A stretch of 42,774 bases of DNA from Spirochaetota bacterium (GTDB taxonomy: Bacteria; Spirochaetota; Spirochaetia; Treponematales; UBA12059). The notes beneath the pieces were generated by a model, which saw only the letters and a program-made list of their open reading frames with translations, was not told the origin of the DNA and searched no databases. The stretch spans positions 1 to 42,774 of the forward strand of contig JAHIWG010000169.1 in assembly GCA_018816345.1 (NCBI GenBank), in the 5' to 3' direction. A program made the translations under genes and the position numbers. Below, one piece after another: positions 3,702 to 35,498 of this stretch (the stretch's first letter is position 1; the number at the start of each line of letters is the position of its first letter).

Positions 3702-3710
3702 ATCGACTGG

Positions 3711-3739: not shown

Positions 3740-3756
3740 CATGGCTCCGGTTCGGC

Positions 3757-3785
3757 TTGCTAAACGATAGGAAACCGGCTACCAT
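3757..3785 (+). promoter_or_regulatory. sigma70-type promoter for the TPR lipoprotein
   Basis: TTGCTA (3757-3762) and TACCAT (3780-3785) are 17 bases apart on the plus strand. The -10 ends 34 bases before the ATG at 3820, leaving room for the GGAG ribosome site. It is divergent from, and close to, the promoter on the other strand. Confidence 0.45.
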
Positions 3786-3819
3786 TGCGCCGAATCCGAA
3801 CCGTCGACCGGAGAGATGC

Positions 3820-5244
3820 ATGAGAAACAGTCCGACGGCGGTCTTATCCGTCGCCATCGCCGTACTCCTCGCCTCCTGCGCGGGCGTTCCCGCCCCGGAC
3901 CGGGGCCTTCCCGGACCCGCCGTAGCCGAGCCGCTTCCTCCCGAGCTTAGCGAGGCCGAGAAGGAGAGCATGGAGCTGGACGCGATTTATCGCGCCATCG
4001 GGCAGGGAGATTACTCCGGCGCCGAGCCCCGGCTCGCGGCCCTGGCCGCGAAGCGGCCCGATAATAGGTCCTATCCCGTGCTCCGCGCGGCTGTCCTCCT
4101 ATCCATGGGCCGCCTCGACGATTCGCGGACGGCGCTCGCGGCCGAGCTGGCCGGCTATCCCGATAACCTCGAGGCCCTGTTCGCCCTGGCCGAGCTGGAA
4201 CGCTTCGCGGGAGACTCCAAGGCGCGCCGCGCCGCCGTCGAGGCCCTGCTCGCCAAGGATCCGGAGAACGCCGACGGCCGGGCCGCCATGGGCGACATAC
4301 TCTACGAAGGCAAGAACTACACGAAGGCGGAGCAGAGCTACTCGGCCTCGCTCGCCTCCGACCCGCAGAAGCCCGAGGCCCTGCTCGGCCTGGCCCGCGT
4401 CAAGTCCAGGCGCGAGGACTATAAGGGCGCGCTCGAGTTGCTGGACAGGGCGGTGGCCGCGGCCCCCGACGACGCCGTCGCCTATCTCGACAGGAGCCGC
4501 GCGCTCTATCAGGTGGGCCGCTACGCCGAGTGCGAGGCCGACCTGGACGAGGCGGTCAGGCTAGCCCCCGCCTCGGCCTGGAACTACGTCGAGCGCGGGC
4601 GTCTCTACCTGGATACGGGCCGCAAGGACCTCGCGATGTCCGACTTCTCGGAGTCTATACGGCTAAACCCCGGCTATTTCCTGCCGTACGTCTACAGGGC
4701 GGCCGTCTACGAGAGCGCCGGCGACGACGAGCGCGCCTTGGCCGACTACCGCGCGGCCGGGGCCCTCTATTCCGATTACTGGTACTCGTTCGAGTCCGTG
4801 GGCGTGCTCGCGTATCGACTCGGCTCCTGGAAGGAGGCCTTCGAGGCCTTCGACAAGGCCTCCGCCTACACCAGGAACCATTCCGAGTACTATATAGCGG
4901 CCGCGCTGTCGCTCTACAGGGCGGGGGAGGCCAAGGCCGCCAGGGAATACGCCGGCAAGAGCCTCGCGAAGGTGGACAAGGCCAAATTCCCCGCCCAATG
5001 GCTCGCCCTCAGGCTCCTGTACGATCAGGGCGACATGACGACGGAGCTAGAGGTGCGCATAGGCGCCGAGAAGAGCCTCGACGTCAAGGCGGGCATGCTC
5101 TTCTACCTAGGCGCCTATTGGGTCGCCAGGGATAAGCCCTCCCTAGGGGCGACGTATTTGCGGATGTCATACGATTTCGAGCGCATGGGCACCATTGAGA
5201 GGCGCATGGCCGAGGCCGACCTCGCCCGCCTCGCCTCGAGATAG
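3820..5244 (+). CDS. TPR-repeat lipoprotein
   Basis: A 474-residue lipoprotein. The ATG at 3820 follows a GGAG site. The signal peptide ends in a lipobox LLASC with Cys20 as the lipid-attachment residue. The mature protein is almost entirely helical tetratricopeptide repeats from about residue 50 to the end. Typical TPR signatures include AEQSYSASLASDPQKPEALL, ALELLDRAVAAAPDDAVAYL and AMSDFSESIRLNPGYFLPYV. TPR lipoproteins act as protein-protein scaffolds at the inner face of the outer membrane or on the periplasmic side of the inner membrane. No enzymatic domain is present. It is followed after 38 bases by the TraB-family gene on the same strand, so the two may form an operon. Partner proteins are unknown. 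Confidence 0.9.
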   Translation: MRNSPTAVLSVAIAVLLASCAGVPAPDRGLPGPAVAEPLPPELSEAEKESMELDAIYRAIGQGDYSGAEPRLAALAAKRPDNRSYPVLRAAVLLSMGRLDDSRTALAAELAGYPDNLEALFALAELERFAGDSKARRAAVEALLAKDPENADGRAAMGDILYEGKNYTKAEQSYSASLASDPQKPEALLGLARVKSRREDYKGALELLDRAVAAAPDDAVAYLDRSRALYQVGRYAECEADLDEAVRLAPASAWNYVERGRLYLDTGRKDLAMSDFSESIRLNPGYFLPYVYRAAVYESAGDDERALADYRAAGALYSDYWYSFESVGVLAYRLGSWKEAFEAFDKASAYTRNHSEYYIAAALSLYRAGEAKAAREYAGKSLAKVDKAKFPAQWLALRLLYDQGDMTTELEVRIGAEKSLDVKAGMLFYLGAYWVARDKPSLGATYLRMSYDFERMGTIERRMAEADLARLASR

Positions 5245-10264: not shown

Positions 10265-11497
10265 ATGAAACTGTCTCGCGTAATCGCGGTCGGCCTGCTA
10301 TCGGCCGTCGTCCTGCTCGCCGGATGCCAGAAGGCGGAGAAGCCCGCCGCCGCCCCCGAGGCCGCCAAGGCTGCCTTCCACATCGGCGTCGTAACCGGTA
10401 CCGTGTCCCAGTCCGAGGACGACCTTCGCGGAGCCGAGGAGCTGATCAAGCGCTACGGCAAGGTCGCCGATGGCGGTATGATCCAGCACATCACCTATCC
10501 CGATAACTTCATGGACCAGCAGGAGACCACCATCTCCCAGATCGTCGCGCTGGCCGACGATCCCCTCATGAAGGCCATCGTGATGAACCAGGCCATACCC
10601 GGCGCCGCCGAGGGCTTCAAGCGCGTTCGCGAGAAGCGCGCCGACATCCTCCTCTTCGCGGGAGAGCCCCACGAGGACCCGCTCGTCATCGAGGCGGCGG
10701 CCGACCTCGCCCTCAACAGCGACTTCATCAGCCGCGGCTATACCATCATCTGGGCCGCCAAGCAGCTCGGCGCCAAGACCTTCGTCCACATATCCTTCCC
10801 GCGCCACATGTCCTACGAGACCCTCGGCCTGCGCAGGCAGATCATGGAGCAGGCCTGCATCGACCTCGGCATGAAGTTCGCGTTCGAGACCGCCCCCGAC
10901 CCGACCTCCGACGTCGGCGTCGCCGGCGCCCAGCAGTTCATCCTGGAGAAGGTCCCCGCGTGGATACAGAAGTACGGCAAGGAGACCGCGTTCTTCTGCA
11001 CGAACGACGCCCATACCGAGCCCCTCCTCAAGCAGCTGCTCCAGTACGGCGGGATCTTCGTCGAAGCCGACCTCCCGTCGCCCCTCATGGGTTATCCAGG
11101 CGCGCTCGGCGTGGACCTGACCGCTGAAGCCGGAAACTTCCCCGCCATCCTCAAGAAGGTCGAGCAGGCCGTCGTGGACAAGGGCGGAGCCGGCCGCTTC
11201 GGAACCTGGGCCTACAGCTACGGCTTCACCGTCACCGCCGGCCTCGGCGAGTTCGCCAAGAACGTCATCGAGGGCAAGACCACCAAGGACAGCCTCGACG
11301 GCCTGTTCACGGCCTTCGCCGTGTACACCCCCGGCGCCAAGTGGAACGGCGGCTACTACATAGACGCCAACACCGGCGTCAAGGCCAAGAATCACCTGCT
11401 CGTCTACATGGACACCTACGTCCTCGGCAAGGGCTACCTGCCGACGACCCAGCAGGTCGTGCCCGAGAAGTACTTCTCCATCAAGTTCCAGAAATAA
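10265..11497 (+). CDS. substrate-binding lipoprotein, DUF3798-like (ABC importer)
   Basis: A 410-residue lipoprotein. The ATG at 10265 follows an ideal AGGAGG site. The signal peptide ends in LLAGC with Cys21 as the lipid anchor, then a Lys/Ala/Pro linker. The mature part (about 38-405) opens with FHIGVVTGTVSQSEDDLRGA, matching from memory the DUF3798 family of periplasmic-binding-like proteins related to BMP/PnrA binding proteins. It would capture a ligand outside the inner membrane and deliver it to the downstream ABC transporter. It has its own promoter and a strong terminator after it, which fits much higher expression than the transporter genes. The ligand is unknown; nucleoside- or flavin-like ligands are possibilities by analogy only. 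Confidence 0.85.
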   Translation: MKLSRVIAVGLLSAVVLLAGCQKAEKPAAAPEAAKAAFHIGVVTGTVSQSEDDLRGAEELIKRYGKVADGGMIQHITYPDNFMDQQETTISQIVALADDPLMKAIVMNQAIPGAAEGFKRVREKRADILLFAGEPHEDPLVIEAAADLALNSDFISRGYTIIWAAKQLGAKTFVHISFPRHMSYETLGLRRQIMEQACIDLGMKFAFETAPDPTSDVGVAGAQQFILEKVPAWIQKYGKETAFFCTNDAHTEPLLKQLLQYGGIFVEADLPSPLMGYPGALGVDLTAEAGNFPAILKKVEQAVVDKGGAGRFGTWAYSYGFTVTAGLGEFAKNVIEGKTTKDSLDGLFTAFAVYTPGAKWNGGYYIDANTGVKAKNHLLVYMDTYVLGKGYLPTTQQVVPEKYFSIKFQK

Positions 11498-11521
11498 GAC
11501 CGACGCCCGCGTCGATCTCGA

Positions 11522-11551
11522 GGGCCGCCCGCGAGGGCGGCCCTTTTGTTT
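11522..11551 (+). terminator. rho-independent terminator after the binding lipoprotein
   Basis: GGGCCGCCC (11522-11530), loop GCGA, GGGCGGCCC (11535-11543), then TTTTGTTTT. A perfect nine-base stem with a U-rich tail directly after the lipoprotein gene. It separates that gene from the ATPase and permease genes. Confidence 0.92.
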
Positions 11552-11579
11552 TGACAAGTATGGTCGCCTCGTTTATCAT
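11551..11579 (+). promoter_or_regulatory. sigma70-type promoter for the ABC ATPase/permease genes
   Basis: A consensus TTGACA (11551-11556), a 17-base spacer and TATCAT (11574-11579). It starts inside the U-tract of the terminator, so the transporter genes have their own promoter. A leader of about 90 bases precedes the ATG. Confidence 0.75.
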
Positions 11580-11585
11580 ACTCAA

Positions 11586-11675
11586 CCGTGTGGAGGCCCT
11601 CCACCACATCAGGCGAGGCCAACGCCGCAGTATCCCAGGCGTACGCCGGGACTTTTCGGAAAAAAGGTAGGTACC
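11586..11675 (+). other. 5' leader of the ABC transporter transcript
   Basis: A roughly 90-base leader between the promoter and the ATPase ATG. It holds a hairpin GTGGAG (11590-11595), loop GCC, CTCCAC (11599-11604), and downstream GC-rich segments (GGCG, CGCC, GGCGTACGCC) that could pair in more than one way. The ribosome site is AGGTAGG. I see no FMN, purine, cobalamin or other riboswitch core that I know. Confidence 0.4.
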
Positions 11676-13277
11676 ATGCCCAACGAACCGCCCTTACTAT
11701 CGCTGAAGGGCATATCCAAGGACTTCTACGGAAATACCGTTCTCGAGGACGTGACCTTCGAGGTCGGAGCCGGGAAGATCGTCGGCCTGGTCGGCGAGAA
11801 CGGAGCCGGGAAGACGACGCTCATGCGCATCCTCTTCGGCATGCCGGTCATCTCCGATACCGGAGGCTACGGCGGCTCCATAGAGCTGAACGGGAAACCG
11901 GTTAAGTTCAAGAGCCCGTTCGACGCCCTGGACGCCGGAATCGGTATGGTCCATCAGGAATTCTCCCTTATACCGGGCTTCACGACGACGGAGAATATCG
12001 TGCTCAACCGCGAGCCGATGAAGCCTAATCTCGCGTGCGAGGTCTTCGGCGACAGGATGAGCGTCCTGGACCGGGCCTCGATGCGCGAAAGCGCGTCCAA
12101 GGCCATCGACCGGCTCGGCGTGAAGCTCGATCCCGAGACGCTCGTCTCCGAGATGCCCGTAGGCCATAAGCAGTTCACCGAGATAGCCCGCGAGATAAAC
12201 CGCGAGAACGTGAGGCTCCTCGTGCTGGACGAGCCGACCGCGGTGCTCACCGAGACCGAGGCGGAGATACTCCTGGAGGCGCTCCGCCGCCTGGCCGCCC
12301 AGGGCATCTCGATCATTTTCATATCCCATCGCCTGCACGAGGTCGCGTCGGTCGCGGATACCATCGTCGTGCTTCGCGACGGCCGCGTCGTCAAGGATAC
12401 GCCCGCCCCGGGCACCACGGTCCGCGACATCGCCGCCTGGATGGTCGGCCGCTCCGTGGAGACGAAGCGGCCCGACCTGGCCGCGCGCACGTTCAAGGGC
12501 GACGCCCTGACGGTCGAGCGGCTATGGGTCGACATGCCCGGCGAGGCCGTCCGCGACGTGTCCTTCACCGTGCGCGAGGGCGAGATCTTCGGCATCGGAG
12601 GCCTAGCCGGGCAAGGCAAGCTGGGCATCCCGAACGGCATCATGGGCCTCTACGCCGGCGGCGGATCCGTCAGGCTCCACGGCGAGCCGGTGCCGCTCAA
12701 CGACCCCCGCGGCGCGCTGAGGCTAGGCATGTCGTTCGTGTCGGAGGACCGGCGGGGCGTCGGCCTCCTCCTCGACGAGAGCCTGGAATGGAACATCGGC
12801 TTCACCGCCATGCAGATCCACGGCAAGTACCTCAAGCCCTACCTGGGAGGCCTCATCAAGCTGCGCGACGAGGCGGGGCTGCGTAGGCTCGCGGAGGAGT
12901 ACATAGAGCAGCTATCGATCAAGTGCACCAGCCCCAAGCAGTTCGCCAAGGAGCTGTCCGGCGGCAACCAGCAGAAGATATGCCTGGCCAAGGCCTTCGC
13001 TCTCAAGCCGAACCTGCTGTTCGTCAGCGAGCCCACGCGGGGCATCGACGTCGGCGCCAAGGAGCTCGTGCTCCAGTCGCTGCGGCACTATAACCGCGAC
13101 TACGGGACGACGATCGTGATGGTATCGAGCGAGCTCGAGGAGCTCAGGTCTATATGCGACCGCGTCGCGATCGTCGACGAGGGGCGCATCGCGGGCATCC
13201 TGCCGCCCGACGCCGACATAGCCGATTTCGGGCTGCTCATGGCCGGCGAAGTAACCAAGGAGGCCGCGGGTGCTTAA
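11676..13277 (+). CDS. ABC transporter double ATPase (RbsA/YufO-like)
   Basis: A 533-residue cytoplasmic protein with two fused nucleotide-binding domains. Domain 1 has Walker A GENGAGKTT at about 40-48, Walker B LLVLDEPT at 181-188 and a degenerate signature MPVGHKQ at 160-166. Domain 2 has a degenerate Walker A (GLAGQGKLG, about 309-317), a good signature LSGGNQQ near 428 and LLFVSEPTRGID at 447-458. One intact and one degenerate site per copy is normal for sugar- and nucleoside-type importers of this class. It powers the two permeases that follow. The downstream permease starts inside its last codons (eight-base overlap), so the genes are coupled. Confidence 0.93.
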   Translation: MPNEPPLLSLKGISKDFYGNTVLEDVTFEVGAGKIVGLVGENGAGKTTLMRILFGMPVISDTGGYGGSIELNGKPVKFKSPFDALDAGIGMVHQEFSLIPGFTTTENIVLNREPMKPNLACEVFGDRMSVLDRASMRESASKAIDRLGVKLDPETLVSEMPVGHKQFTEIAREINRENVRLLVLDEPTAVLTETEAEILLEALRRLAAQGISIIFISHRLHEVASVADTIVVLRDGRVVKDTPAPGTTVRDIAAWMVGRSVETKRPDLAARTFKGDALTVERLWVDMPGEAVRDVSFTVREGEIFGIGGLAGQGKLGIPNGIMGLYAGGGSVRLHGEPVPLNDPRGALRLGMSFVSEDRRGVGLLLDESLEWNIGFTAMQIHGKYLKPYLGGLIKLRDEAGLRRLAEEYIEQLSIKCTSPKQFAKELSGGNQQKICLAKAFALKPNLLFVSEPTRGIDVGAKELVLQSLRHYNRDYGTTIVMVSSELEELRSICDRVAIVDEGRIAGILPPDADIADFGLLMAGEVTKEAAGA

Positions 13278-14313
13278 AATTAAGGAATTCGCGGCCGATT
13301 TCGGCTGGCCGCGCATCATCATATTCTTCTTCCTCGTCGCCCTGTTCATCGTCGCGCCCTTCGTCGGCGTCAGCATCAGCAGGTCCCTGTCGGATACCTT
13401 CAACCGTTTCGGGCAGAACGCGATACTCGTGCTCGCGCTGGTCCCAATGGTCCAGGCCGGCTGCGGCCTCAACTTCGGCTTGCCGGTCGGCATCGTCGCG
13501 GGCCTCCTGGGCGCGACCATAGCCATGCAGATAGGCCTTACCGGCTGGCTCGGCTTCCTCGGCGCCGTGGCCATATCCCTTCCGATAGCGGCAATATTCG
13601 GCTGGCTCTACGGACAGCTCCTCAACAAGGTCAAGGGCGAGGAGATGACGATCGCGATGTACGTCGGGTTCTCCATCGTCACCTTCTTCTCCATCCTGTG
13701 GCTGCTCCTGCCGTATTCCAGCCCGGCGATGGTCTGGGGCTATACCGGCAAGGGCCTGCGGACGACCATAACCCTGGACGGCTTCTGGGGGCGCATACTC
13801 AATAACTTCCTGGCCGTCAGGATAGGCGAGAATTTCGTCTTCCCTACCGGCATGATACTCTTCACGATGCTCTGCGCCTTCCTCGTATACCTCTTCTTCC
13901 GCACCAAGACGGGCACGGCTATGACCGCGGTCGGCTCCAACCCCGACTTCGCGCGGGCGGGCGGCGTCTCCTCCGATAGGATGCGGACCATCAGCGTGAT
14001 GCTGTCGACGATGCTCGGCGCCGTCGGCATCCTCGTGTACCAGCAGAGCTTCGGGTTCATCCAGATGTACCAGGCCCCGCTCTTCATGGCCTTCCCCGCG
14101 GTCGCGGCCCTGCTGATCGGCGGCGCGAGCGTCAATAAGGCGTCGATGGTCAACGTGATCATAGGCACGCTGCTGTTCCAGGGCATCCTGACAATGACGC
14201 CCAGCGTCATCAATAGCGTCCTGCAGACCGACATGTCGGAGGTGATAAGGATAGTGCTGTCCAACGGCATGATCCTCTACGCGCTGACGCGGAAGACGAA
14301 GGTGACTAAATGA
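13270..14313 (+). CDS. ABC transporter permease 1 (BPD_transp_2 family)
   Basis: A 347-residue integral membrane protein from a GTG at 13270, overlapping the ATPase stop by eight bases. About eight to ten hydrophobic helices are visible. The family pattern is clear from LNFGLPVGIVAGLLGA (a Gly-rich helix after the first conserved loop), a cytoplasmic stretch with GSNPDFARAGGV, and a Gly-rich segment LLIGGASVNKASM near the C-terminus. This is the branched-chain amino acid/sugar/nucleoside-type permease fold. It forms a heterodimeric channel with permease 2. The stop overlaps the next ATG by four bases. Confidence 0.92.
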   Translation: MLKIKEFAADFGWPRIIIFFFLVALFIVAPFVGVSISRSLSDTFNRFGQNAILVLALVPMVQAGCGLNFGLPVGIVAGLLGATIAMQIGLTGWLGFLGAVAISLPIAAIFGWLYGQLLNKVKGEEMTIAMYVGFSIVTFFSILWLLLPYSSPAMVWGYTGKGLRTTITLDGFWGRILNNFLAVRIGENFVFPTGMILFTMLCAFLVYLFFRTKTGTAMTAVGSNPDFARAGGVSSDRMRTISVMLSTMLGAVGILVYQQSFGFIQMYQAPLFMAFPAVAALLIGGASVNKASMVNVIIGTLLFQGILTMTPSVINSVLQTDMSEVIRIVLSNGMILYALTRKTKVTK

Positions 14314-15431
14314 AGAAGAAATTCGATTTCAGGAGGTTCATAGCCGACAACGTAGTCGTCGTGATCTTCCTGGTGCTCACCGCGATCGCGACGCCGGTAT
14401 CGGGACTGTCCGCGAACTACATACTCCAGGACATCATCACGCGCATAGGCCGCAACTCGTTCCTGGTGTTCAGCCTCCTCCTCCCCATCATGGCCGGCAT
14501 GGGACTGAACTTCGGCATGGTGCTCGGCGCGATGGCCGGCGAGATAGGGCTCATCTTCGCGGTAGACTGGAACATATCCGGCGTCTGGGGGCTGGGCTTC
14601 GCCGTCATCGTCGGGTTCCCCATCGCCGTCATGCTGGGCTGGGCCGCCGGAGCCGTCCTCAACCGGGCCAAGGGCCGCGAGATGGCGACCGGCTATATCC
14701 TCGGCTTCTTCATGGACGGCGTCTACCAGTTCGTGGTCCTGTACCTGATGGGCTCCCTGATCCCGATGCGCTCGCTGGCCATAACGCTGTCGCGCGGCTA
14801 CGGCATAAGGAACACGCTAAACCTGGATTCGGTCAGGCAGAGCCTCGATAACGTCATGATGGTCAGGCTGTTCGGCCTTAACTTCCCGATAGGCACCTTC
14901 ATCATAGTGGGCATGCTATGCGTCTTCATCGTGTGGTTCCGCAAGACGAAGCTGGGCCAGGACATGCGCGCGATAGGCCAGGATCAGCTCGTCTCGAACG
15001 CCTCGGGCATACCGGTGGAGAAGACGCGCATCATCGCCATAGTCATGTCGACGGTGCTCGCGATGATAGGCCAGGTGATATTCCTCCAGAACATGGGCAA
15101 CATGGCGACGTATAACGCCCACCGGCAGACTGGCTTCTTCGCGGTCGCCGCCATCCTCGTAGGAGGGGCCTCGGTCACGAAGGCGACGATTCCAAACGTC
15201 TTCGTCGGCGTAGTGCTGCTCCACCTCATGTACATCGTCATGCCGCGCGCGGGCGCCCAGCTGTTCGGGTCGGCCCAGATAGGCGAGTACTTCCGCGACG
15301 CGTTCAGCTACGGCGCGATAGCGCTGGCGCTCGTGCTCCACGCGTGGCGCAAGCGCCGCGGCGTCGAGATAGACCGCGCCGGCCTCAGGCGGAACACCGT
15401 CGACCCGGCGGCCAAAGGAGGCGCGGCATGA
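14310..15431 (+). CDS. ABC transporter permease 2 (BPD_transp_2 family)
   Basis: A 373-residue integral membrane protein, paralogous to permease 1. It has the matching elements LNFGMVLGAMAGEIG, AIGQDQLVSNASGI (cytoplasmic loop) and LVGGASVTKATIPNV. The ATG overlaps the permease 1 stop (ATGA). The C-terminus after about residue 345 is an Arg-rich cytoplasmic tail. With permease 1, the double ATPase and the binding lipoprotein it makes a complete importer. Gene order (lipoprotein, ATPase, permease, permease) matches the treponemal riboflavin (Rfu) and nucleoside-type systems, but order alone does not fix the substrate. Confidence 0.92.
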   Translation: MKKKFDFRRFIADNVVVVIFLVLTAIATPVSGLSANYILQDIITRIGRNSFLVFSLLLPIMAGMGLNFGMVLGAMAGEIGLIFAVDWNISGVWGLGFAVIVGFPIAVMLGWAAGAVLNRAKGREMATGYILGFFMDGVYQFVVLYLMGSLIPMRSLAITLSRGYGIRNTLNLDSVRQSLDNVMMVRLFGLNFPIGTFIIVGMLCVFIVWFRKTKLGQDMRAIGQDQLVSNASGIPVEKTRIIAIVMSTVLAMIGQVIFLQNMGNMATYNAHRQTGFFAVAAILVGGASVTKATIPNVFVGVVLLHLMYIVMPRAGAQLFGSAQIGEYFRDAFSYGAIALALVLHAWRKRRGVEIDRAGLRRNTVDPAAKGGAA

Positions 15432-18468: not shown

Positions 18469-19738
18469 CGCTGGCGGCGCCCCGCGGCGCCCCGCGGCGG
18501 AAGCCGCGGTCGGCGCAGCGGACCATGATCGCGCAGGCGAGGAGGCGCGCCTCGGGACCGACGGATTGGACGCCGAGGCCGCCTAGCGCCGCGACGAGGC
18601 CGGCCGCGACGGCGGCGGCCCTGAATAGCCAGGCCGCCGCGCCGCGCCGCGACGCCTTGGCGCCCGCGGCCAGCGCTATGGCGGGCGCGGCGTTAGCCCA
18701 TAGCAGGTTCACGTTCCATGCGGCCTCCTCGTAGCCCGCGAGGAGCCAGAAGAGCGCGACGCCTAGGCCTACGATAAGGGCGAAGCCGAATAACAGCGAG
18801 TCGAAGGCCGCGGCTAGGCGGCGCCTACGGAGCAGGGCCACGACGACGGACAGGCCGAGCAGGATCGCCGCCGCGATCGCCGGAGGCACTGAGAAAGCCG
18901 CGGACGAGGGCTCGGCCTCGTAGACGGTCCTCGTCGCCCGCACGAGGCTACGGCCTTCGACCGTCGCGGCCTCGGCCCAGTCCATGAGCTGCTCGGGCAG
19001 GAATATCGCGTCGCCGGCCGTCGGCTTCCGGTCGACGTTCGGGCCCATGAGCATATCGACGACGAATACCAGCCAGTCCCGCTCGCCCAGGACGCCCTTG
19101 ATCGAGGCGCGGACCGTCATCCTCGGAACGGCCGTCCCCGACGGCGTTTCGGGTTTCCCGTCGACGCCGCCGCCGCCGCCGCCGCCGTCCTCGTTGGCTA
19201 GCGCCTGCAGCATCGCAGCGACGCGCGTCGTGCAATTATCGCTGAAGTAGCGGTAGTTGTAGATCCTGTTCTCAGGTCGTATATCGCGCCTGAGCGTCTC
19301 TACGAGGCTTGATCCCTGGGCTTCGTCCAGGTCGAGCACCTGCTCGAATATCGTCCGGTTCTCGACGCCGCTGTAGAAGCCGAGCACATCGGCCGTCCGG
19401 CCCGCGCCTACCATGAATTCCATGCGGCCGGCGAACATGCCGAGGGCGAAGCCCAGGTCGAAGTCCCGGGCTGAGAGGCCGTAGTTATAGAACAGGTCGC
19501 GGTCGCTCGCGGCGTCGACGACCCGGAGCCCGGTGTGCCCGAAGGCGGAGTAGAGGCTTGGGCCCGGCAGTATCGTTATAAGGGATACCTGGAAACGGCC
19601 CGATTCGGCTCCCGAAGGAGTCGGGTCGGCCCGAAGGGCGAACGGCGCCCAGCCGAGCAGCGCCGCCAGCATAATCGCGGCGGCGGGCGAGGGCCGCCAG
19701 ATCCGCGAGGCCGAGAGAGTCAACGCTAGCCTCCGCAT
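18461..19738 (-). CDS. DUF4105 (Lnb-like) membrane protein
   Basis: A 425-residue protein with an N-terminal signal or anchor helix (about 18-36), an extracytoplasmic DUF4105 domain (about 48-280) and four to five hydrophobic helices after residue 285. The two catalytic-type residues of the papain-like DUF4105/Lnb family are present: His68 in [10 protein letters not shown] and Cys169 in [10 protein letters not shown]. The membrane part holds the family-like WNVNLLWAN. In enterococci Lnb N-acylates lipoproteins by intramolecular acyl transfer; whether diderm members do so is not established. The start overlaps the chemoreceptor stop (TGATG), so it is coupled to it. A seven-Gly run near residue 193 is coded by a GCC repeat. 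Confidence 0.82.
18482..18509. other. GC hairpins just past the leuS stop
   Basis: CCGCGG-CGCC-CCGCGG (18482-18497) and an overlapping CCGCGGC-GGAA-GCCGCGG (18492-18509) form alternative perfect stems. They lie inside the 3' end of the convergent DUF4105 gene and are the only candidate structure for ending leuS transcription. There is no U-tract. Confidence 0.35.
19166..19187. repeat. (GCC)7 microsatellite coding poly-Gly
   Basis: A 22-base run of the GCC trinucleotide inside the DUF4105 gene encodes seven Gly on the minus strand. Being in-frame, length changes would only alter a linker-like segment between the Cys169 region and the rest of the domain. Confidence 0.9.
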
Positions 19739-21870
19739 CAGGTCTTGAACTGCTCAATCTCGCCCGATACGGCCTGCACGCTACGCGATGCCGCGGAAGT
19801 CAGCTCGTTCGTGTCCTGCGCCGCCCTGCGGATCTCCTCGGCGCCGGCGGCCATCTCTACCATGCCGTTCTCCAGCTCGCTCGCGAGCTGCAGGAGCTGC
19901 CGCATCTCGAGGAGGACGGCGTTGGAGCCGTCCTGCATCTCCTGCGCTGACTGCCTGACGTCGGCGGTCACCTCGTTGATGTTGGCGAGGGATTCCAGGA
20001 TCTGGACGGAGCCCGTGCTCTGCTCCTGCATGGAGTACTTGATCTCCTCCTCGAGGCGGGAGAGGATCCGTATCTGCTCCAGGATATCGTCGAACGTGGT
20101 GGCGCTGACCCCGGAGCTCGAGACGACGGCCTCTATGAGCCCCCTGATGCCCTTGATGTTCTGGCCGATGGTCTTGGACTGGGTCGCGGCGTTCTCGGCC
20201 AGCTTGCGGATCTCGTCGGCCACGACAGCGAAGCCCATCCCGGCCTCTCCCGCGTGGGCGGCCTCTATGGCCGCGTTCATGGCGAGCAGGTTGGTCTGGG
20301 CGGCGATGCCGGCGATGAGCGAGTTCGCTTCCTGCAGGTTCTCCGACTGGGCGTCTATCTCGCGCACCTGCCTCACGACGGTCTCTATCGCGCCGCGGCC
20401 CGAATCGGACTTGCCTAGCAGTTTCTCGTAGTACGACGCCATCCGCTCTATATTGGCCGTGACCGACTGGATGCTCGCTACCATCTCCTCTATGGAGCTG
20501 GAGGAGGACGAGACTCCCTCCGATTGCCGCTCTATGAGCTTGTACAAATGCACGATGTTCTTGGCTATCTGCTCCACGGTGGCGCTCGATTCGGTCACGG
20601 AGGCGCTCTGGTTGATGGTCTGAAGCTTCAGGCTCTCGATATTGGCGCTTATCTGCCTAACGGCCCCGGCGGTCTCCTCGGTATTGGAGGAGAGGCGTAG
20701 CATGCCGTCGCCTAGCGACCTGACTTCCGTCTTGACCGTGGCTATGATGCCACCGAGCTTGGCGACGAAGCCGTTGAAGTACTCGGCTAGCATACCCAGT
20801 TCGTCCCTGGCCCCCGCCTTTATGGTGCGGGTCAGGTCAGCGTCGCCGGAGGAGACGTTCATCATTCCCGTGGAGACTTCCTTCATCCTGGCCGTGACGC
20901 TCGATAGCATGAATACCGATATGATGAATACGAACAGCACCGCGACTCCGAGCCCGGCGCCTATGAGGATGATCTCCCTGGCGAGCGTCGATGACTTCGA
21001 CGCGAACCAGACCTCTGTCTCGCCGGTCACGAGGTCGATGACGGCCTGGATCTTCTCTATTATCGGTTCGCTATCCTTATAGAATTCCATACCGTCGCGG
21101 CCGTAGCCGCCGATGTTAGCCATGCCGATGATCTCGACGACGGCGTCTTGCATGTTATACCACTCGGAGCTTATCTCTAGCTCCGATAAGGCGATAGCGG
21201 CCTCGGGCCCGGTGTTCGCGGCGCCGTTCCTGACGTTGACGGTAAGCCTGGCGTTGGCCTCGAGCAGCTCCTGGATGGCCTGTAGCTGGAAGATAGGCAG
21301 GTCGAGCGTGTAGATGGAGCTCGCGAGGCATTGGACGCGGCTCGCGTTCTCCTTGGCGTGCTCGAAGAGCACGAGGGCCTCGAGGCGCCTCGAGGCCTCC
21401 GCCGACTCGGTCCTGGCGAGCGAGCCTATATGCTCGAGGATCGTGTCGTCCACGGCGCTATAGCTCACGTACACGGAACGGGCCATGATCGAGCGGTCGT
21501 CGACCTGCCGCCTCAGCTGCGCGAGCTCGGCCACGGCGCTGGAGATGCCCGGCAGGACTTCCGTAGGCACGGCCTTCGCGGAGAACGATTCAGTCGCGGC
21601 TTGCATCGCCTCGTCTACCGCGTATCTCGTCGACATGATGCCGTCGGCCGCCGCCGCGCCAGCCAGGTACAGGTACGCGATGCCGCGCTCCTTCTGTAGA
21701 GCCGATATCAACGCGCTCGCCGATTTCATCGCCGCGAGCTTATACGCCGCTTCGCTCGACTTCGTCCGCTCCTTGCCCGACTGAAACAGGACCATGGCGC
21801 CCATCGCGACGGCGAGCACGAGCGGCGCGCTCGATAATATAAGGAGTTTGTTGCGTAATGATACGGTCAT
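19738..21870 (-). CDS. methyl-accepting chemotaxis protein with NIT sensor domain
   Basis: A 710-residue chemoreceptor. Transmembrane helices are at about 8-30 and 301-322. The periplasmic region starts with SALISALQKERGIAYLYLAG (LQKERG at 58-63), the hallmark of the NIT nitrate/nitrite-sensing domain, and is helical throughout. HAMP follows at about 323-375. The signalling hairpin is LIAGIAAQTNLLAMNAAIEA, then AGEAGMGFAVVADEIRKLAE. It would report ligand to CheA/CheW and control flagellar rotation. The ATG at 21870 has AAGGA upstream. No cheA, cheW, cheB or cheR gene is in the window. The ligand assignment to nitrate or nitrite rests on the domain only; NIT domains also bind other ligands. 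Confidence 0.93.
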   Translation of the reverse strand: MTVSLRNKLLILSSAPLVLAVAMGAMVLFQSGKERTKSSEAAYKLAAMKSASALISALQKERGIAYLYLAGAAAADGIMSTRYAVDEAMQAATESFSAKAVPTEVLPGISSAVAELAQLRRQVDDRSIMARSVYVSYSAVDDTILEHIGSLARTESAEASRRLEALVLFEHAKENASRVQCLASSIYTLDLPIFQLQAIQELLEANARLTVNVRNGAANTGPEAAIALSELEISSEWYNMQDAVVEIIGMANIGGYGRDGMEFYKDSEPIIEKIQAVIDLVTGETEVWFASKSSTLAREIILIGAGLGVAVLFVFIISVFMLSSVTARMKEVSTGMMNVSSGDADLTRTIKAGARDELGMLAEYFNGFVAKLGGIIATVKTEVRSLGDGMLRLSSNTEETAGAVRQISANIESLKLQTINQSASVTESSATVEQIAKNIVHLYKLIERQSEGVSSSSSSIEEMVASIQSVTANIERMASYYEKLLGKSDSGRGAIETVVRQVREIDAQSENLQEANSLIAGIAAQTNLLAMNAAIEAAHAGEAGMGFAVVADEIRKLAENAATQSKTIGQNIKGIRGLIEAVVSSSGVSATTFDDILEQIRILSRLEEEIKYSMQEQSTGSVQILESLANINEVTADVRQSAQEMQDGSNAVLLEMRQLLQLASELENGMVEMAAGAEEIRRAAQDTNELTSAASRSVQAVSGEIEQFKT

Positions 21871-21925: not shown

Positions 21926-22546
21926 CTAGCCGATGAATAGAGGTAAGTAAGCGGCCGCTACGGCGAGCGCGAGCGCGATGTCCCCTCGCCTTATCGCCGA
22001 CTTGCTAGTGCTATACCTGTCCCCGGCGCTGTCCTCGCCGGTTTCCGTTCCATAATAGACCGAAACGAGGATCTCGTCGATCGATTTCAAGAACCCGTCG
22101 AGCCTGATTGAGGCCTTTCGCTCGAGTATCCTATCGTAGCCGCGTAGCGCCTCGGCGAAGAACGCGCCGAACCGGCCCGGAAGCCGTAGGCCGGGGCCGA
22201 GGCAGGCCTTGGAGATGAACATAAGCGCCTCGAAGGTGACGGCCTTGCGGAGTCCGTCGGCGAGCGCGATCTCGGTAATCGCGAATGGCCCTATGGAGCC
22301 TAGCTTGCGGCCTATGGGCACGACGAGGTTAGCCGCCACGATACCCGCCATGACGAGGACGGTAGTGAGCGGGGATAGCCTGCGGCCCGAGAGCCACGCC
22401 GCCGCGGCCGCGCACGCGAGCATGACCGCCCTGCCGACGAGGCTGGGCTGGAAAAGGAGCGCCGCGGATAGGGCTACTCCCGCCATGGCTAATCTTGACG
22501 GGGCGAAGGCCGACTCCCATCGCTCCCGCCGCTCAGGCCTGCCCAT
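21926..22546 (-). CDS. EcfT/CbiQ-like membrane protein (tentative)
   Basis: A 206-residue integral membrane protein. Hydrophobic helices lie at about 19-50, 58-80, 100-120 and at the C-terminal end (ALALAVAAAYLPLFI). The centre (ITEIALADGLRKAVTFEALM to FFAEALRGYDRILERKASIR) resembles the cytoplasmic coupling-helix region of energy-coupling-factor T components, but the usual Ala-Arg-Gly motifs are not clear. It starts 14 bases inside the Gx-family gene, so it is in the same operon. A divergent EcfT-like protein also accompanies Gx-family and NusG-II proteins in flavin-based electron transfer loci of Gram-positive bacteria (recalled, not checked). Alternative: an unrelated small membrane protein. 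Confidence 0.6.
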   Translation of the reverse strand: MGRPERRERWESAFAPSRLAMAGVALSAALLFQPSLVGRAVMLACAAAAAWLSGRRLSPLTTVLVMAGIVAANLVVPIGRKLGSIGPFAITEIALADGLRKAVTFEALMFISKACLGPGLRLPGRFGAFFAEALRGYDRILERKASIRLDGFLKSIDEILVSVYYGTETGEDSAGDRYSTSKSAIRRGDIALALAVAAAYLPLFIG

Positions 22547-23114
22547 CGCTGGCCCCCTCGCCGCGCGCTTCCGCCCCGACGGAAGCCAGCCACGACGACC
22601 TCGACGCGAATACCTCGGTAAACGAGCCGAGCGCCAAGCCGGAAACGAGTCCGAGCGCCATGAAGGCGGGCGCCATGAACCGGGCGCTCTCCCCGAAGAC
22701 GAAGACTCGGGCCAGCCCTACCTGCGCCATGTTGGAGACGACGGCCCCCGCGACGCAGAGCCCGACGTACGATAGCGCCCTCGGGCCCGCGACGGCCCTG
22801 AGGCCGCGCATGACCAGGGCGCTCGCGAGCGTGCCGACCAGGGAGAACAGCGCGACGTACGAGAATAGCGATCCGGTAAGCACGCTCATGCCGACGACCT
22901 TCACGAGGGCGAGCGCTATATACAGGCCGAAGGGCAGGAGGTCCACGGCTATGAGTATGGGCAGGTTGGCCAGCCCCAGGCGCATGAACGGCACGGGCCG
23001 GGGCAGCATGTACTCGACGGTAGACAGGAAGAAGGCTAGCGCCGCCAAGAAGGCCGCGAGCCTCCTCCCGCCGTCGACGCGGGACGGCCTAGCGGACGAT
23101 GGCGTCGATCTCAT
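22533..23114 (-). CDS. Gx-family (Hpre_diP_synt_I) membrane protein
   Basis: A 193-residue integral membrane protein with about five or six helices between residues 17 and 165. The signature RLGLANLPILIAVDLLPFG and the charged pair near RPVPFMRLG are typical of the family formerly called heptaprenyl diphosphate synthase component I, now Gx transporter family. Some members (EetB-like) belong to loci for flavin-based extracellular electron transfer. The ATG at 23114 lies behind a strong GGAGG and overlaps the end of the NusG-II gene by 26 bases. The next gene starts 14 bases before its stop. No polyprenyl synthase component II is in view, so an isoprenoid role is not supported here. Confidence 0.83.
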   Translation of the reverse strand: MRSTPSSARPSRVDGGRRLAAFLAALAFFLSTVEYMLPRPVPFMRLGLANLPILIAVDLLPFGLYIALALVKVVGMSVLTGSLFSYVALFSLVGTLASALVMRGLRAVAGPRALSYVGLCVAGAVVSNMAQVGLARVFVFGESARFMAPAFMALGLVSGLALGSFTEVFASRSSWLASVGAEARGEGASDGQA

Positions 23115-23493
23115 CTTCTTCCTCCGAGCCTTCGATCCGCACGAATACGCCGTTGGGCAGGCACGCCGACCAATCCCCCGCGCGCTTGAGGGGGGGAGAC
23201 GCCACGCATGTCTTATTGACGCAGGGAGAGTCCTCGATACGGACGGAGCCGGCCGCTACGCTGACGCGCGTATCGCCGAGAATGCCCGGCACGTCGATGA
23301 CCCGGTCCTGGGACAGCGGGTATATCCAGGTCTCGTCGCCGCTGGACACGACGACGCTAGCGGACGCGGGACCGCCGTATACGGCAATGGACAGCGCGAC
23401 CAGGGCCGCGACCGATAGGCCCACGATCAGGGCGTCGAGCGGCCTGATCGCCGGCCTCGGCCCGCGCGCGCGGGCCGGGTCGATCAGTGGCAA
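23089..23493 (-). CDS. NusG domain II (DUF1312) membrane-anchored protein
   Basis: A 134-residue protein. The best start is TTG at 23493, overlapping the slyD stop by ten bases; there is no ATG in the frame, and a GTG at codon 24 would split the membrane helix. A basic N-terminus (RARGPRPAIR) precedes one helix at about 20-39. The extracytoplasmic domain has the NusG-II pattern: RIEDSPCVNKTCV (Cys91, Cys96) and ACLPNGVFVRI (Cys111). Such proteins stand beside Gx-family proteins in many genomes and are EetA-like in electron-transfer loci. They are not transcription factors despite the name. The acidic tail (EGSEEEDEID) lies just before the stop. Confidence 0.82.
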   Translation of the reverse strand: MPLIDPARARGPRPAIRPLDALIVGLSVAALVALSIAVYGGPASASVVVSSGDETWIYPLSQDRVIDVPGILGDTRVSVAAGSVRIEDSPCVNKTCVASPPLKRAGDWSACLPNGVFVRIEGSEEEDEIDAIVR

Positions 23494-24035
23494 CCGCCGC
23501 AGCCGCAGCCGCCCTCGTCGTCGCAGTCCCCGTCGCCGCACTCGCCGCCGCCGCAACCGCAGCCGCACTCGTCGTCGCCGTGCACGTGGCCGTGCTCGAG
23601 CTCCTCGGGCAGCGCCTCGCGGACGTCCTTGACCGTGACGTCGAAATGCAGCTCCTTGCCGGCCAGGGGGTGGTTGGCGTCTATGGTGACTGCGTCGCCC
23701 TCGACGGCGACCACGGTGACCACGCGCATGCCGCCCTCTTCCTGGGCCTGGAACTGCATGCCGGCCTCGATCTTGTCGGGCTCCGCGAAGTCCTTCTTGG
23801 AAACGGTGAAAACCATCTCCTTGTCGTGCTCGCCGTACGCGTCGGCGGGAGCGATGACGCATTGGACCTTGTCCCCGGCTTTCTTGCCGTCCAGGTGGCG
23901 CTCGAGGCCGGGGATGATGTTGTCGTTGCCGTGGAGGTAGACCAGGGGCTCGCCCTCGGAGCGGTCAATCATCGTACCCTGGGCGTCCTTGAGCATGTAG
24001 TCTATCGAGACGACGCGATCCTTCTGAATATCCAT
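23484..24035 (-). CDS. slyD: SlyD-type FKBP peptidyl-prolyl isomerase with metal-binding tail
   Basis: A 183-residue cytoplasmic folding helper. The ATG at 24035 has AAGGA seven bases upstream; a TTG further out at 24065 is less likely. The FKBP domain has VSIDYMLKDAQG, the loop EPLVYLHGNDNIIPGLERHL and the ending HFDVTVKDVREALPEEL. The insert-in-flap region (about 65-125) supplies chaperone activity. The tail from about residue 147 has His residues (EHGHVHG) and eight Cys in CGCGCGGGECGDGDC and GGCGCGGCH, ready to bind nickel or zinc. In enterics SlyD feeds nickel to hydrogenase. Here it is first in the operon with the NusG-II, Gx and EcfT-like genes. Confidence 0.93.
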   Translation of the reverse strand: MDIQKDRVVSIDYMLKDAQGTMIDRSEGEPLVYLHGNDNIIPGLERHLDGKKAGDKVQCVIAPADAYGEHDKEMVFTVSKKDFAEPDKIEAGMQFQAQEEGGMRVVTVVAVEGDAVTIDANHPLAGKELHFDVTVKDVREALPEELEHGHVHGDDECGCGCGGGECGDGDCDDEGGCGCGGCH

Positions 24036-24228: not shown

Positions 24229-25026
24229 ATGACTATCTTGCAAGCGTCGCTATTGGGTCTTTTTCAGGGCGTAGCGGAATTCCTGCCCATTTCGTCGAGC
24301 GGGCATCTCTTAGTGTTCAAGGATATCATGGGGCTGTCGGAAGTGCCCGCCCTGTTCGACGTGACGCTGCACCTGGCTACGCTCGCGTCTATCGTACTGG
24401 TATTCCGGAAGCGCATATTCGGCATCGTCGCGTCCATCGCGCGGTGGATAGCCCGCAGGAGCGGCGAGGCGGACGCCGAGAACCTTTCGATCGTCGTCCC
24501 GGCGGCGCTCGCCACCGTCCTGACGGCAGGTATCGGCTTCGCCGTCGAGCTCGTCGATCTATCGGGCGCGCCTAAGGTCGTAGCCGGGCTCTTCCTCGTC
24601 ACGGCGCTCGTCCTCGTGGCCTCGTCCAGGCTCAAGCCGGGCGCTACGGGCTATCGCGGCATGCGGATACGGCACGGCGTCATCGTCGGCATAGCCCAGG
24701 GCATAGGCGTGTTCCCCGGCATCAGCCGTTCCGGCATCACTATCAGCGCCGGGCTCGCCTCGGGCCTCGACCGGGAGACGGCCGGGGAATTCTCCTTCCT
24801 GCTGGCCGTTCCGGCCATCCTCGGCGCGCTCGTGCTCAAGCTGGGCGACCTCGCCGAGCTGGCCGGTACTGTATCGCCGTCGGCCCTGGCGGCCGGCTCG
24901 GCCGCGGCGTTCGCGGCCGGCGTCGCCTCGCTCCTCGTCCTCCTGCCCATAGTGCGAAAGGGAAGGCTGGCCTGGTTCGCGGCCTACCTAGTACCCGCCG
25001 GGCTCCTGGGGCTATTCCTCCTCTAG
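24229..25026 (+). CDS. uppP: undecaprenyl-diphosphatase
   Basis: A 265-residue integral membrane enzyme that dephosphorylates undecaprenyl pyrophosphate to recycle the lipid carrier for peptidoglycan; overexpression gives bacitracin resistance. Both signature motifs are intact: QGVAEFLPISSSGHLLV with catalytic Glu and Ser-rich loop near residues 14-30, and GISRSGITISAGL near 165. About eight hydrophobic helices are present and length is normal for the family. RBS GGAGG is seven bases before the ATG. The ftsK gene follows after 41 bases on the same strand, so the two envelope/division genes may be cotranscribed. Confidence 0.97.
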   Translation: MTILQASLLGLFQGVAEFLPISSSGHLLVFKDIMGLSEVPALFDVTLHLATLASIVLVFRKRIFGIVASIARWIARRSGEADAENLSIVVPAALATVLTAGIGFAVELVDLSGAPKVVAGLFLVTALVLVASSRLKPGATGYRGMRIRHGVIVGIAQGIGVFPGISRSGITISAGLASGLDRETAGEFSFLLAVPAILGALVLKLGDLAELAGTVSPSALAAGSAAAFAAGVASLLVLLPIVRKGRLAWFAAYLVPAGLLGLFLL

Positions 25027-25067
25027 CGATACGCCGATATACCGTATAAGGATCGGAGCCGAAAGCA

Positions 25068-27926
25068 TTGTATACAGATCGTAAGGCAGCATCGCTCGTC
25101 ATCGTCTCGTCCGCCGCGTTGTGCGCGTCGGGTATAGCCCTGTTCGCGTGGCTTCTCGTCTCGGCGCTGGGCATAGGAGGGGGGTCGTTCCTCCTCGACG
25201 GCCTGTCGTGGGCGGCCTTCGTCCTGCCCGCCTACCCTTGGGTCGGCGCCCTGATCGTGGCGATGCCGGGCTTCAGGTACGATATACTCTTCGGCCTCGT
25301 GGGCAGCCTCGTTCCCTTCGCGACGCTGTCGTATACCGCGCGCCTGCTCGACGATCCCGCGAGGTGGTTCGCCGCCCATCCGCGTTCCGAGGCGCTCGGC
25401 GTCGCGGGCGCGGCCGCCCTCGGTTTCGGCGCCACGATTCTGGCCGGCGCCCTCCTCTTCTTAGCCGCGCGCCGCATACGGAACGGCGGACGGCCTGAGG
25501 CGCCCCGCTTCCGCACCGACGAGGCCCCTTCCGACGAGTCGCGTTACGGCGACGCGCGTTTCGGCGAGAGTTCCGGCGAAGCCGGGCCGGCCGCCCGGGC
25601 GGCGCCTCCCCTCGATGACTCTCCCGATGACGAGCCGAGGCCGCTGGTGCTGAGCTATCCGGACCTGCCCCCCGCGCCCTTCCTGACGTCGCTCTCGGCG
25701 CCCCGCCAGGGCGCATCCGGCGCCGGCGACGCCCCTGACGCCGGCGACGCCCCTGACGCCGGCGACTCTCCCGCCGACATCGCCGCGGCCGACGCCTCCG
25801 ACGCCTCCGAGGAGCCCGAGATGCTCGAGGAGCTCGAGGAGCTCGACCGTGTCTCCGAGGTCGAGGACGTGGCCGGCGACGACGTTCCCGAGGCGCCCAT
25901 ACCCCTGATGTTCGGACGGGAAAAAGCGCCCGCGGCTCTCGTCGAGGACGATCCCGCCCTTGACGCCGCCTTCTGGTCCGACGACGAGCCTCAAGCGGGC
26001 GACGCCGAGGGCTATAACGCGGCCGACGAGACGGGCGACGCCGAGGGAGATGAAGAGGGAGATGAAGAGGCAGATGAAGAGGCAGATGAAGAGGGAGCGT
26101 ACGCGGGCGACGATGGGGCCATGACGGCCGGACGAGCTCGCGGCGAGTCGGCGTATCCGAGGCGCTCGGCGCTGCTGCCGAAGGTGGAGATCTTCCAGGA
26201 CGGCGAGCACGCGGAGGCCGTCCGCGAGGCCGACGACCTAGCGGAGCGCTCCAGGCGCTTCGACCCGGCCGCGGTGGTCCCCGCCGCGGAGCTCGTGAAG
26301 GCCGCGGGAAAGCCCGCGGGGCAAGCGGCTAGGCCTCCGGTCGAGGTCTCCGCGCCTCCGGCCAGGGCCCCGCGCGTCGCGCCGCGGAAGCCGATAGTCC
26401 AATACTCCCTGCCCACCGAGGGCATCCTGACCGCGTACCCCGACGGGCAGTACTGGATCATAGACGACAAGACCCGCCACGAGGCCGAGGTGCTCCGCGA
26501 GACGCTCAAGGAGTTCGGCATAGAGGCTGAGGTCACCGGCATCAAGAAGGGGCCGGTAATCACCATGTTCGAGATACTGCCGGCTCCCGGCGTTCGCCTC
26601 TCCAAGATCGCCGGCCTGTGCGACAATATCGCCCTGCGCCTGGCCGCCTCGAGCGTGCGCATCGTCGCGCCCATACCGGGCAAGCACGCCGTCGGCATCG
26701 AGGTCCCCAACGCCAGGCGATCCATCGTGTCGTTCAAGGAGATTGTCGAGAGCGAGGCCTTCAAGAACGCCAAGATGGAGGTGCCGGTAGTCCTGGGCAA
26801 GGACATCACCGGCGACGTGCAGGTCGTCGAGCTCACCCAGACGCCGCACCTCCTCATAGCCGGGGCGACGGGCTCCGGCAAGTCCGTCTGCGTCAACTCC
26901 ATAATCCTGTCAATCCTGTACCGGCGCTCGTTCAACGAGGTCAAGCTCATACTCATCGACCCCAAGATAGTCGAGCTCAAGCTGTACAACGGCATACCGC
27001 ACCTGCTGACGCCGGTCATCACCGAGCCCAAGCGCGCCTTCCAGGCCCTGCAGTACTGCATCTGCGAGATGGAGCGCCGCTACAGCCTCCTCGACGCGAT
27101 GGGCGTGCGCGATATCAAGTCGTACAACAGGAAGATCGCCGAGAAGAGCATGGCGACCGATAGGCTCCCGTACATCGTCGTGATCATAGACGAGTTCGCG
27201 GACCTGATGGCGACCACGGGAAAGGAGCTGGAGTCCACGCTGGCGCGCCTCGCCGCGATGTCCCGCGCGGTGGGCATCCACCTGGTGCTCGCGACCCAGC
27301 GGCCTAGCATCGACGTCATAACGGGACTCATCAAGGCGAACATCCCCAGCCGCATAGCCTTCATGGTCGCGGGCAAGTTCGACTCGCGCATCATCATCGA
27401 CATGGTGGGCGCCGAGAAGCTGCTCGGCCGCGGCGACATGCTGTACTCCAGCGCTACCGACGCCTTCCCCGTGCGCATGCAGGGCGCCTTCGTCTCCGAG
27501 GACGAGGTTGAGCGCGTCGTGGCCTACGTGAAGACGCTGGGCGAGCCCGACTACATCGACGAGGAGATATTCGTCGACGACGAGGACGACGACGGACCGT
27601 CTCTCTTCGACGAGGAGGACGACGACCCGCTCTACGAGAAGGCCCTGGAGATAGTCCTGTCCCAGGGCAAGGCCAGCGCCAGCTTCCTGCAGCGCAAGCT
27701 GAAGATAGGCTATAACCGCGCCGCCCGCCTCGTGGAGCTGATGGAGGAGAAGGGCATAGTAGGGAAATCCCAGGGCAGTAAGCCCCGCGACCTCATGCAC
27801 AACCCCGAGATGGGCCGAGCGCCCAACCCGCGCGCCAGGTACGTGCCCGATTTCTCGCCCGACGACGGGGAGGCCGATGTGGCCGAAGGCGACGAGGACG
27901 GCGACGAGGACGGCGAGGCGCGGTAA
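25068..27926 (+). CDS. ftsK: DNA translocase FtsK/SpoIIIE
   Basis: A 952-residue septal DNA pump. The only in-frame start is TTG at 25068 behind GGAG; this gives four membrane helices within about residues 8-138. A long, acidic, low-complexity linker (about 140-440) contains tandem repeats. The alpha and beta domains follow, then the RecA-like motor with Walker A GATGSGKS at 599-606 and Walker B VVIIDEFAD (Asp708), plus ATQRPSIDVITG. The gamma winged helix at about 855-925 (DPLYEKALEIVLSQGKASAS) recognises KOPS sequences and activates XerCD. An extra acidic tail (GDEDGDEDGEAR) ends the protein. It resolves chromosome dimers at division. Confidence 0.97.
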   Translation: MYTDRKAASLVIVSSAALCASGIALFAWLLVSALGIGGGSFLLDGLSWAAFVLPAYPWVGALIVAMPGFRYDILFGLVGSLVPFATLSYTARLLDDPARWFAAHPRSEALGVAGAAALGFGATILAGALLFLAARRIRNGGRPEAPRFRTDEAPSDESRYGDARFGESSGEAGPAARAAPPLDDSPDDEPRPLVLSYPDLPPAPFLTSLSAPRQGASGAGDAPDAGDAPDAGDSPADIAAADASDASEEPEMLEELEELDRVSEVEDVAGDDVPEAPIPLMFGREKAPAALVEDDPALDAAFWSDDEPQAGDAEGYNAADETGDAEGDEEGDEEADEEADEEGAYAGDDGAMTAGRARGESAYPRRSALLPKVEIFQDGEHAEAVREADDLAERSRRFDPAAVVPAAELVKAAGKPAGQAARPPVEVSAPPARAPRVAPRKPIVQYSLPTEGILTAYPDGQYWIIDDKTRHEAEVLRETLKEFGIEAEVTGIKKGPVITMFEILPAPGVRLSKIAGLCDNIALRLAASSVRIVAPIPGKHAVGIEVPNARRSIVSFKEIVESEAFKNAKMEVPVVLGKDITGDVQVVELTQTPHLLIAGATGSGKSVCVNSIILSILYRRSFNEVKLILIDPKIVELKLYNGIPHLLTPVITEPKRAFQALQYCICEMERRYSLLDAMGVRDIKSYNRKIAEKSMATDRLPYIVVIIDEFADLMATTGKELESTLARLAAMSRAVGIHLVLATQRPSIDVITGLIKANIPSRIAFMVAGKFDSRIIIDMVGAEKLLGRGDMLYSSATDAFPVRMQGAFVSEDEVERVVAYVKTLGEPDYIDEEIFVDDEDDDGPSLFDEEDDDPLYEKALEIVLSQGKASASFLQRKLKIGYNRAARLVELMEEKGIVGKSQGSKPRDLMHNPEMGRAPNPRARYVPDFSPDDGEADVAEGDEDGDEDGEAR
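25722..25766. repeat. 18-bp tandem repeat in the ftsK linker
   Basis: GCCGGCGACGCCCCTGAC occurs twice exactly (25722-25739, 25740-25757) plus a nine-base half copy. It encodes repeated AGDAPD units in the acidic linker and keeps frame. Confidence 0.9.
26049..26096. repeat. 12-bp tandem repeat in the ftsK linker
   Basis: Four copies of GATGAAGAGGNA (N = G, C, C, G) encode DEEG/DEEA repeats. The unit uses GAT/GAA/GAG where the flanking DNA strongly prefers GAC/GAG, so it looks recently expanded. Confidence 0.9.
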
Positions 27927-34962: not shown

Positions 34963-35045
34963 CGGAGCCGGCGCCTGAGCGCCCGGGGCCCTCCGCCTAG
35001 CCTGCGGGAGCCGTTAGTCAGTATCTTCGCTGACGGAGGCTCATG

Positions 35046-35498
35046 ATGCTCGCAGAAGGATCCCTTGCTCCCGATTTTACCCTCCAGGACGACGAGGGAA
35101 AGCCCGTCTCGCTATCGTCGTACCGCGGCAAGACCGTCGTCGTGTACTTCTATCCCAAGGACGATACGCCCGGTTGCACGAAGGAGGCCTGCGGCTTCCG
35201 CGACGCCTACGACCTGTTCCTGGCCAAGGGCGCGGTCGTCATCGGCGTCAGCCCGGACAAGCCCGCCTCGCACGGCCGCTTCCGCGCCAAGCACGGCCTG
35301 CCCTTCGTCCTCCTGGCCGACCCCGAGCACTCCGTCCTCGAGGCCTACGGCGCGTGGGGCGAGAAGTCCATGTACGGCAAGAAGTACATGGGCGTCGTCC
35401 GCTCGACCGTCGTCGTCGCGCCGGACGGCTCGGTGCTCAAGGCCTTCCCCAAGGTCAGCCCGGAGGGGCACGCCGCGGAGATACTCGCGGAGCTGTGA
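35046..35498 (+). CDS. bcp: thioredoxin-dependent thiol peroxidase (Bcp/PrxQ)
   Basis: A 150-residue cytoplasmic peroxiredoxin that reduces hydrogen peroxide and organic hydroperoxides using thioredoxin. The peroxidatic Cys44 and resolving Cys49 are in KDDTPGCTKEACGFRD, the one-helix C-x4-C arrangement of the Bcp/PrxQ subfamily. The conserved Arg is in RSTVVVAPDGSV. Two ATGs occur in a row (35043, 35046); the second has the better six-base spacing from GGAGG and matches the usual family N-terminus. Length is normal. It is followed after five bases by thpR, so they are likely cotranscribed. Confidence 0.97.
   Translation: MLAEGSLAPDFTLQDDEGKPVSLSSYRGKTVVVYFYPKDDTPGCTKEACGFRDAYDLFLAKGAVVIGVSPDKPASHGRFRAKHGLPFVLLADPEHSVLEAYGAWGEKSMYGKKYMGVVRSTVVVAPDGSVLKAFPKVSPEGHAAEILAEL

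Follow-up and report, generated by a model that had tools for sequence, protein, structure and literature searches.

Four overlapping genes on the minus strand of a spirochaete contig were found to encode a SlyD protein followed by a NusG_II-Gx-EcfT-like module, and this module is likely the spirochaetal counterpart of EetB/FmnA, an FAD exporter of the ECF type, and would supply FAD to ApbE. It was read as a FAD supply line to ApbE because Gx and ApbE co-occur among spirochaete genomes, because their genes are adjacent in some of them, and because of the precedent in Listeria. The spirochaetal module departs from the EetB-type exporter by its divergent T-component. The window analysed was the whole of contig C166 (42,774 nucleotides) of a spirochaete assembly that measures 3.8 Mb and is 96% complete.

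The first gene of the operon is slyD (23484..24035, minus strand), encoding an FKBP-type prolyl isomerase/chaperone with a Cys-rich, His-ended tail. It is followed on the same strand by the gene for a NusG_II or EetA-like protein with a single predicted transmembrane helix and a domain outside the cytosol (23089..23493, minus strand), the gene for the Gx or EetB-like protein, an ECF S-component-type membrane protein proposed as the FAD-binding subunit (22533..23114, minus strand), and the gene for its partner, a divergent ECF T-component by predicted fold (21926..22546, minus strand). The preliminary description had taken these four overlapping minus-strand genes as an operon, and the open reading frames (ORFs) at these coordinates, with overlaps of 10, 26 and 14 bases along the series, bear this out. 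A purine-rich, ribosome-binding-like stretch precedes the ATG of slyD, of Gx and of the EcfT-like gene, and for the latter two it sits within the preceding gene. No ribosome-binding-like sequence was found upstream of the TTG assumed as the NusG_II start, and for this reason the 10-base slyD/NusG_II overlap is the least certain, amounting to a guess on the start codon, whereas the 26- and 14-base overlaps are solid. An Rfam scan of the window gave no match, so that no FMN riboswitch was called in it, and promoter and terminator scans of the window gave nothing clearly above shuffled sequence.

The resemblance of the second and third products to the EetA/EetB families, proposed from their appearance alone, was confirmed by HMM searches, in which the 134- and 193-residue proteins matched PF07009 (E 5e-17, 62 bits versus a curated cut-off of 29.6) and PF07456 (Hpre_diP_synt_I; E 7e-29, 101 bits versus 30), respectively, both well above the cut-offs. 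Three Cys of NusG_II (SPCxNxxC ... ACLPN) are invariant in 55/55 relatives, which would be in keeping with redox chemistry, metal binding or a structural disulphide. A sequence search of Gx against the PDB gave no match, and the S-component fold was read from a fused homologue of Rectinema subterraneum (L109), not from the Gx of the window. The Gx domain of this homologue models as an S-component, with TmRibU as the best match (Z 14.5, rmsd 3.1, 157 aligned) and ThiT at Z 13.8; since several S-components tie in Z, the fold does not fix the ligand.

The claim that the fourth protein is EcfT-like held for its predicted fold and failed for family models, as no Pfam or NCBIfam match was obtained for the window protein and PF02361 was not matched. 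An AlphaFold2 model from 28 aligned sequences (pLDDT 82.8) gave eleven best PDB fold matches that were all ECF-T (Z 8.8-14.5), the first unrelated match following at Z 4.8. The top match was 8bms_C (Z 14.5, rmsd 3.5, 202 aligned), on which Foldseek concurred (E 7e-4), and the C-terminal domain of the Rectinema subterraneum fusion model also matched ECF-T. Alignment of the T-like family with CbiQ of the same genomes by hhalign was colinear and weak (probability 13%, pairwise E 0.002), and the T-like profile gave chance matches only against PDB sequences. The relation to ECF-T is thus shown by modelled fold and is barely visible in sequence. With S-component and ECF-T folds both found, the operon encodes an S-T pair. 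Compared with canonical EcfT/CbiQ (PF02361), the predicted fold is alike across the entire chain, whereas the window protein is shorter (206 versus 240-266 residues) and is without a conserved [A/S]RG (Ala-Arg-Gly) coupling motif. Of 19 canonical CbiQ/EcfT proteins of relatives, 17 carried this motif around residue 170, whereas nothing equivalent was conserved across 39 T-like sequences, in which scattered matches fell at unaligned places.

Within the order, NusG_II was found in 54 of 59 genomes and Gx in exactly those 54, and the T-like protein was found in 52 of the 59 using a 26-sequence alignment as the query. Of the 55 NusG_II loci known from the order (54 from relatives and the window itself), 31 have the complete SlyD-NusG_II-Gx-EcfT-like arrangement, as does every one of the 29 loci retrieved separately via the T-like protein; the four-gene order is therefore kept beyond chance. 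Gx and the T-like protein form a single ORF in 15 of the 55 loci, and S-T fusions have been reported for EetB-type exporters (Rivera-Lugo 2023, PMC9973259). In Treponemataceae, the Gx/T-like pair lies apart from NusG_II yet stays together, usually fused. A Treponema pallidum-like genome of 1.14 Mb carries SlyD and a fused Gx-T (L086) as well as NusG_II, whose match position is consistent with TPANIC_1032, annotated as a NusG domain II protein (PMC8525777). Among 217 spirochaete genomes, the T-like protein was found in 64, all of which have Gx, and it was absent from Gx-bearing genomes outside the class Spirochaetia. The Gx/T-like module is widespread in this class.

Gx was detected in 110 of the 217 spirochaete genomes and ApbE in 169, with ApbE in all 110 Gx genomes versus 59 of the 107 genomes without Gx. 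This co-occurrence is confounded by ancestry, the Fisher p of 2e-18 ignoring it and the genus-level p being only 1e-4. A survey of neighbours across spirochaetes for redox genes had been suggested, together with the expectation of a link to such genes in relatives, and the expectation was borne out by ApbE, whose gene is found no more than 2 kb from Gx in 12 of the 110 Gx genomes (0.2 expected), Gx occurring only in ApbE genomes. Gx-T-like clusters with ApbE alongside, mostly convergent and most with NusG_II (L183-L186, L171, L176, L177, L169), come from several Spirochaetia families and may be natural minimal FAD-export/flavinylation loci. Among the genomes of the order in which Gx is missing, G025 and G049 also lack ApbE and FMN_bind domains. 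Two others, G037 and G191, possess ApbE but neither Gx nor the T-like protein, and G037 has no NusG_II either; the FAD supply in these two must differ. Since 59 spirochaete genomes have ApbE without Gx, Gx is not the sole FAD supply. The module tracks ApbE rather than Rnf, because both the T. pallidum-like genome G032 and genome G052 keep Gx, NusG_II and ApbE and give no match to RnfA/E. The genome of the window has a single ApbE, on contig C92, in agreement with the earlier statement that ApbE is out of view here; it also has an Rnf cluster with an FMN_bind subunit, RnfG, carrying SGATRT, and further FMN_bind proteins carrying SGATHS and SGATIS (motif SGAT[RHI][TS]).

The mechanism proposed for the exporter is as follows. 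Gx, as the S-component, would bind FAD in the cytosol, and the divergent T-component would dock Gx and permit its toppling, whereupon the toppled Gx would let FAD go into the periplasm. In that compartment, the only ApbE encoded in the genome would use FAD to attach FMN covalently onto RnfG and the other FMN_bind proteins, and NusG_II, with its membrane-anchored periplasmic domain, may guide the hand-over of FAD to ApbE. The substrate and the outward direction are suggested by Listeria, in which EetB (PF07456) binds FAD. Without added FAD, flavinylation of PplA by FmnB, the ApbE enzyme of Listeria, depends on EetB together with the T-component FmnA and the ATPases EcfA/A' (PMC9973259). In addition, eetB often adjoins apbE (PMC9973259).

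The spirochaetal module and the EetB-FmnA-EcfA/EcfA' exporter of Listeria monocytogenes have in common the PF07456 S-component, an ECF-T partner, the EetA/NusG_II neighbour and the link to ApbE. In contrast, the spirochaetal T-component is missed by Pfam and is without the conserved coupling motif, and the module adds SlyD, resides in a diderm host and has no Ndh2, demethylmenaquinone or PplA genes alongside. With the flavin-based extracellular electron transfer (EET) locus of Firmicutes (dmkA/B, ndh2, pplA, fmnA/B, eetA/B), it shares the eetA-eetB pair and the T-component, but it corresponds to the FAD-export part only, the consumers (Rnf and FMN_bind proteins) being elsewhere in the genome. 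Consistent with what had been said of the operon, NADH dehydrogenase (Ndh2) and demethylmenaquinone genes were absent, as was a flavinylated lipoprotein, among the 20 larger ORFs scanned (window 0.4-34.9 kb).

The Listeria exporter requires EcfA/A', whereas no ATPase gene was conserved beside the spirochaetal module in the loci surveyed. TIGR04520 gave no match in the genome of the window at E <= 1e-60; this threshold is strict, so an ATPase may still act in trans, and a CbiM-CbiQ-ATPase transporter with a CbiO-like ATPase is encoded at another locus of the genome. That the energy source differs across Spirochaetia, with a two-part ECF-derived FAD exporter working without the usual ATPases or coupled to an ATPase via a new surface, is a tentative extension of the exporter reading, with perhaps one chance in a few. 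Because the coupling motif is missing, the idea of an ECF exporter that is independent of ATPases or newly coupled is open to test, with S and T already available as one polypeptide.

The slyD product matched PF00254 (FKBP_C) in Pfam (E 2e-11), NCBIfam PRK10737 (E 2e-39, under the cut-off of that model) and PDB SlyD chains (E 3e-36, residues 1-179). It has the FKBP domain with insert and the Cys/His-rich tail of SlyD; the eight tail Cys noted earlier for this first gene of the operon were seen, together with a final His. Cys-rich tails are usual for SlyD, and the tail of the window protein is putatively of the metal-binding type. The slyD gene adjoins the module in 35 of the 55 NusG_II loci of the order. 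It is also beside the module in several Treponemataceae, with altered orientation in two (L190, L192), and overlaps or abuts the fused Gx-T gene in L086-L089, loci of four genomes that include the T. pallidum-like one of 1.14 Mb. The 20 loci sampled from other families and from beyond the class (L163-L182) all lack slyD next to the module, which marks SlyD as a lineage addition; it is probably an order-level addition serving as a co-transcribed folding helper, and not a core part.

The S- and T-component folds and the adjacent slyD would also fit an ECF system that imports a metal, for example nickel, or some other small molecule, with SlyD as a cytosolic metal chaperone. This alternative is improbable, since Gx is found only alongside ApbE, no locus examined outside the order has slyD beside the module, and the genome has the separate CbiM-CbiQ-ATPase transporter. 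Somewhat less probable still is a membrane electron conduit, the reading favoured by the preliminary description, in which NusG_II and Gx would pass electrons to extracytosolic acceptors and SlyD would supply metal. It draws on the EetA/EetB names and their EET loci, on the three invariant NusG_II Cys, and, for metal delivery, solely on the metal-binding type of the SlyD tail. Against it, the Gx domain has an S-component fold and a T partner, NusG_II and Gx persist in G032 and G052 without an RnfA/E match, and NADH dehydrogenase/quinone genes are absent among the window ORFs scanned. Moreover, in Listeria EetB binds FAD and deletion of eetA gives no electron-transfer phenotype, EET being normal (PMC9973259), which makes a membrane redox module unlikely. 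An isoprenoid/undecaprenyl function, hinted at by the name that Pfam gives to PF07456 (heptaprenyl diphosphate synthase component I) and by UppP (BacA), which adjoins the operon in the window and is conserved there in 23 loci, is very improbable, since the Gx domain folds as an S-component, no prenyl synthase is present among the window ORFs scanned, and Gx keeps its T partner where it is located elsewhere (Treponemataceae). The UppP neighbour was rejected as an isoprenoid sign and attributed to local synteny.

If the FAD-exporter reading is true, it explains how ApbE obtains FAD in spirochaetes, among them the agent of syphilis. In Treponema pallidum, flavinylation in the periplasm by ApbE (Ftp) is an established process, and the portions available of the two reports concerned name no FAD exporter for it (PMC4767422, PMC12052999). 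The point in common with that system (Ftp/ApbE TP0796) is the ApbE enzyme that the proposed exporter would feed. In the open-access literature, no paper was found naming a FAD route into the spirochaete periplasm. The module would be a concrete candidate for such a route across most of the class, the T. pallidum-like genome included, and would offer a function for proteins that at present go by 'NusG domain II' or 'Gx transporter' or are annotated as hypothetical.

Several further features were recorded. UppP (BacA) and FtsK are encoded at 24229-27926 (plus strand), divergent from the operon, and are conserved there in 22-23 loci of relatives, which is probably plain synteny. Directly downstream of the operon is the gene for a methyl-accepting chemotaxis protein with a NIT (nitrate/nitrite sensing) domain (19738-21870, minus strand), homologues of which are near the module in 18 loci. 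The region 10265-15431 (plus strand) encodes a DUF3798 protein, a double ABC ATPase and two BPD_transp_2 permeases, forming an ABC transporter to which no substrate was assigned; when it was compared with the RfuABCD-type riboflavin importer, the DUF3798 protein matched 3qi7 alone in the PDB, and no RfuA structure. A 693-codon ORF (1890-3971, minus strand) without a Pfam match at E <= 0.001 may be antisense or spurious, because it overlaps a TPR ORF (3571-5244). At L161:1621-4472 (G000 C100, in the genome of the window), CbiM with a PDGLE domain, CbiQ and an ABC ATPase are encoded, followed by ORFs that resemble LarE and LarC by eye; this cluster is perhaps a nickel transporter for lactate racemase. 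A PrxQ-type peroxiredoxin is encoded at 35043-35498 (plus strand) of the window.
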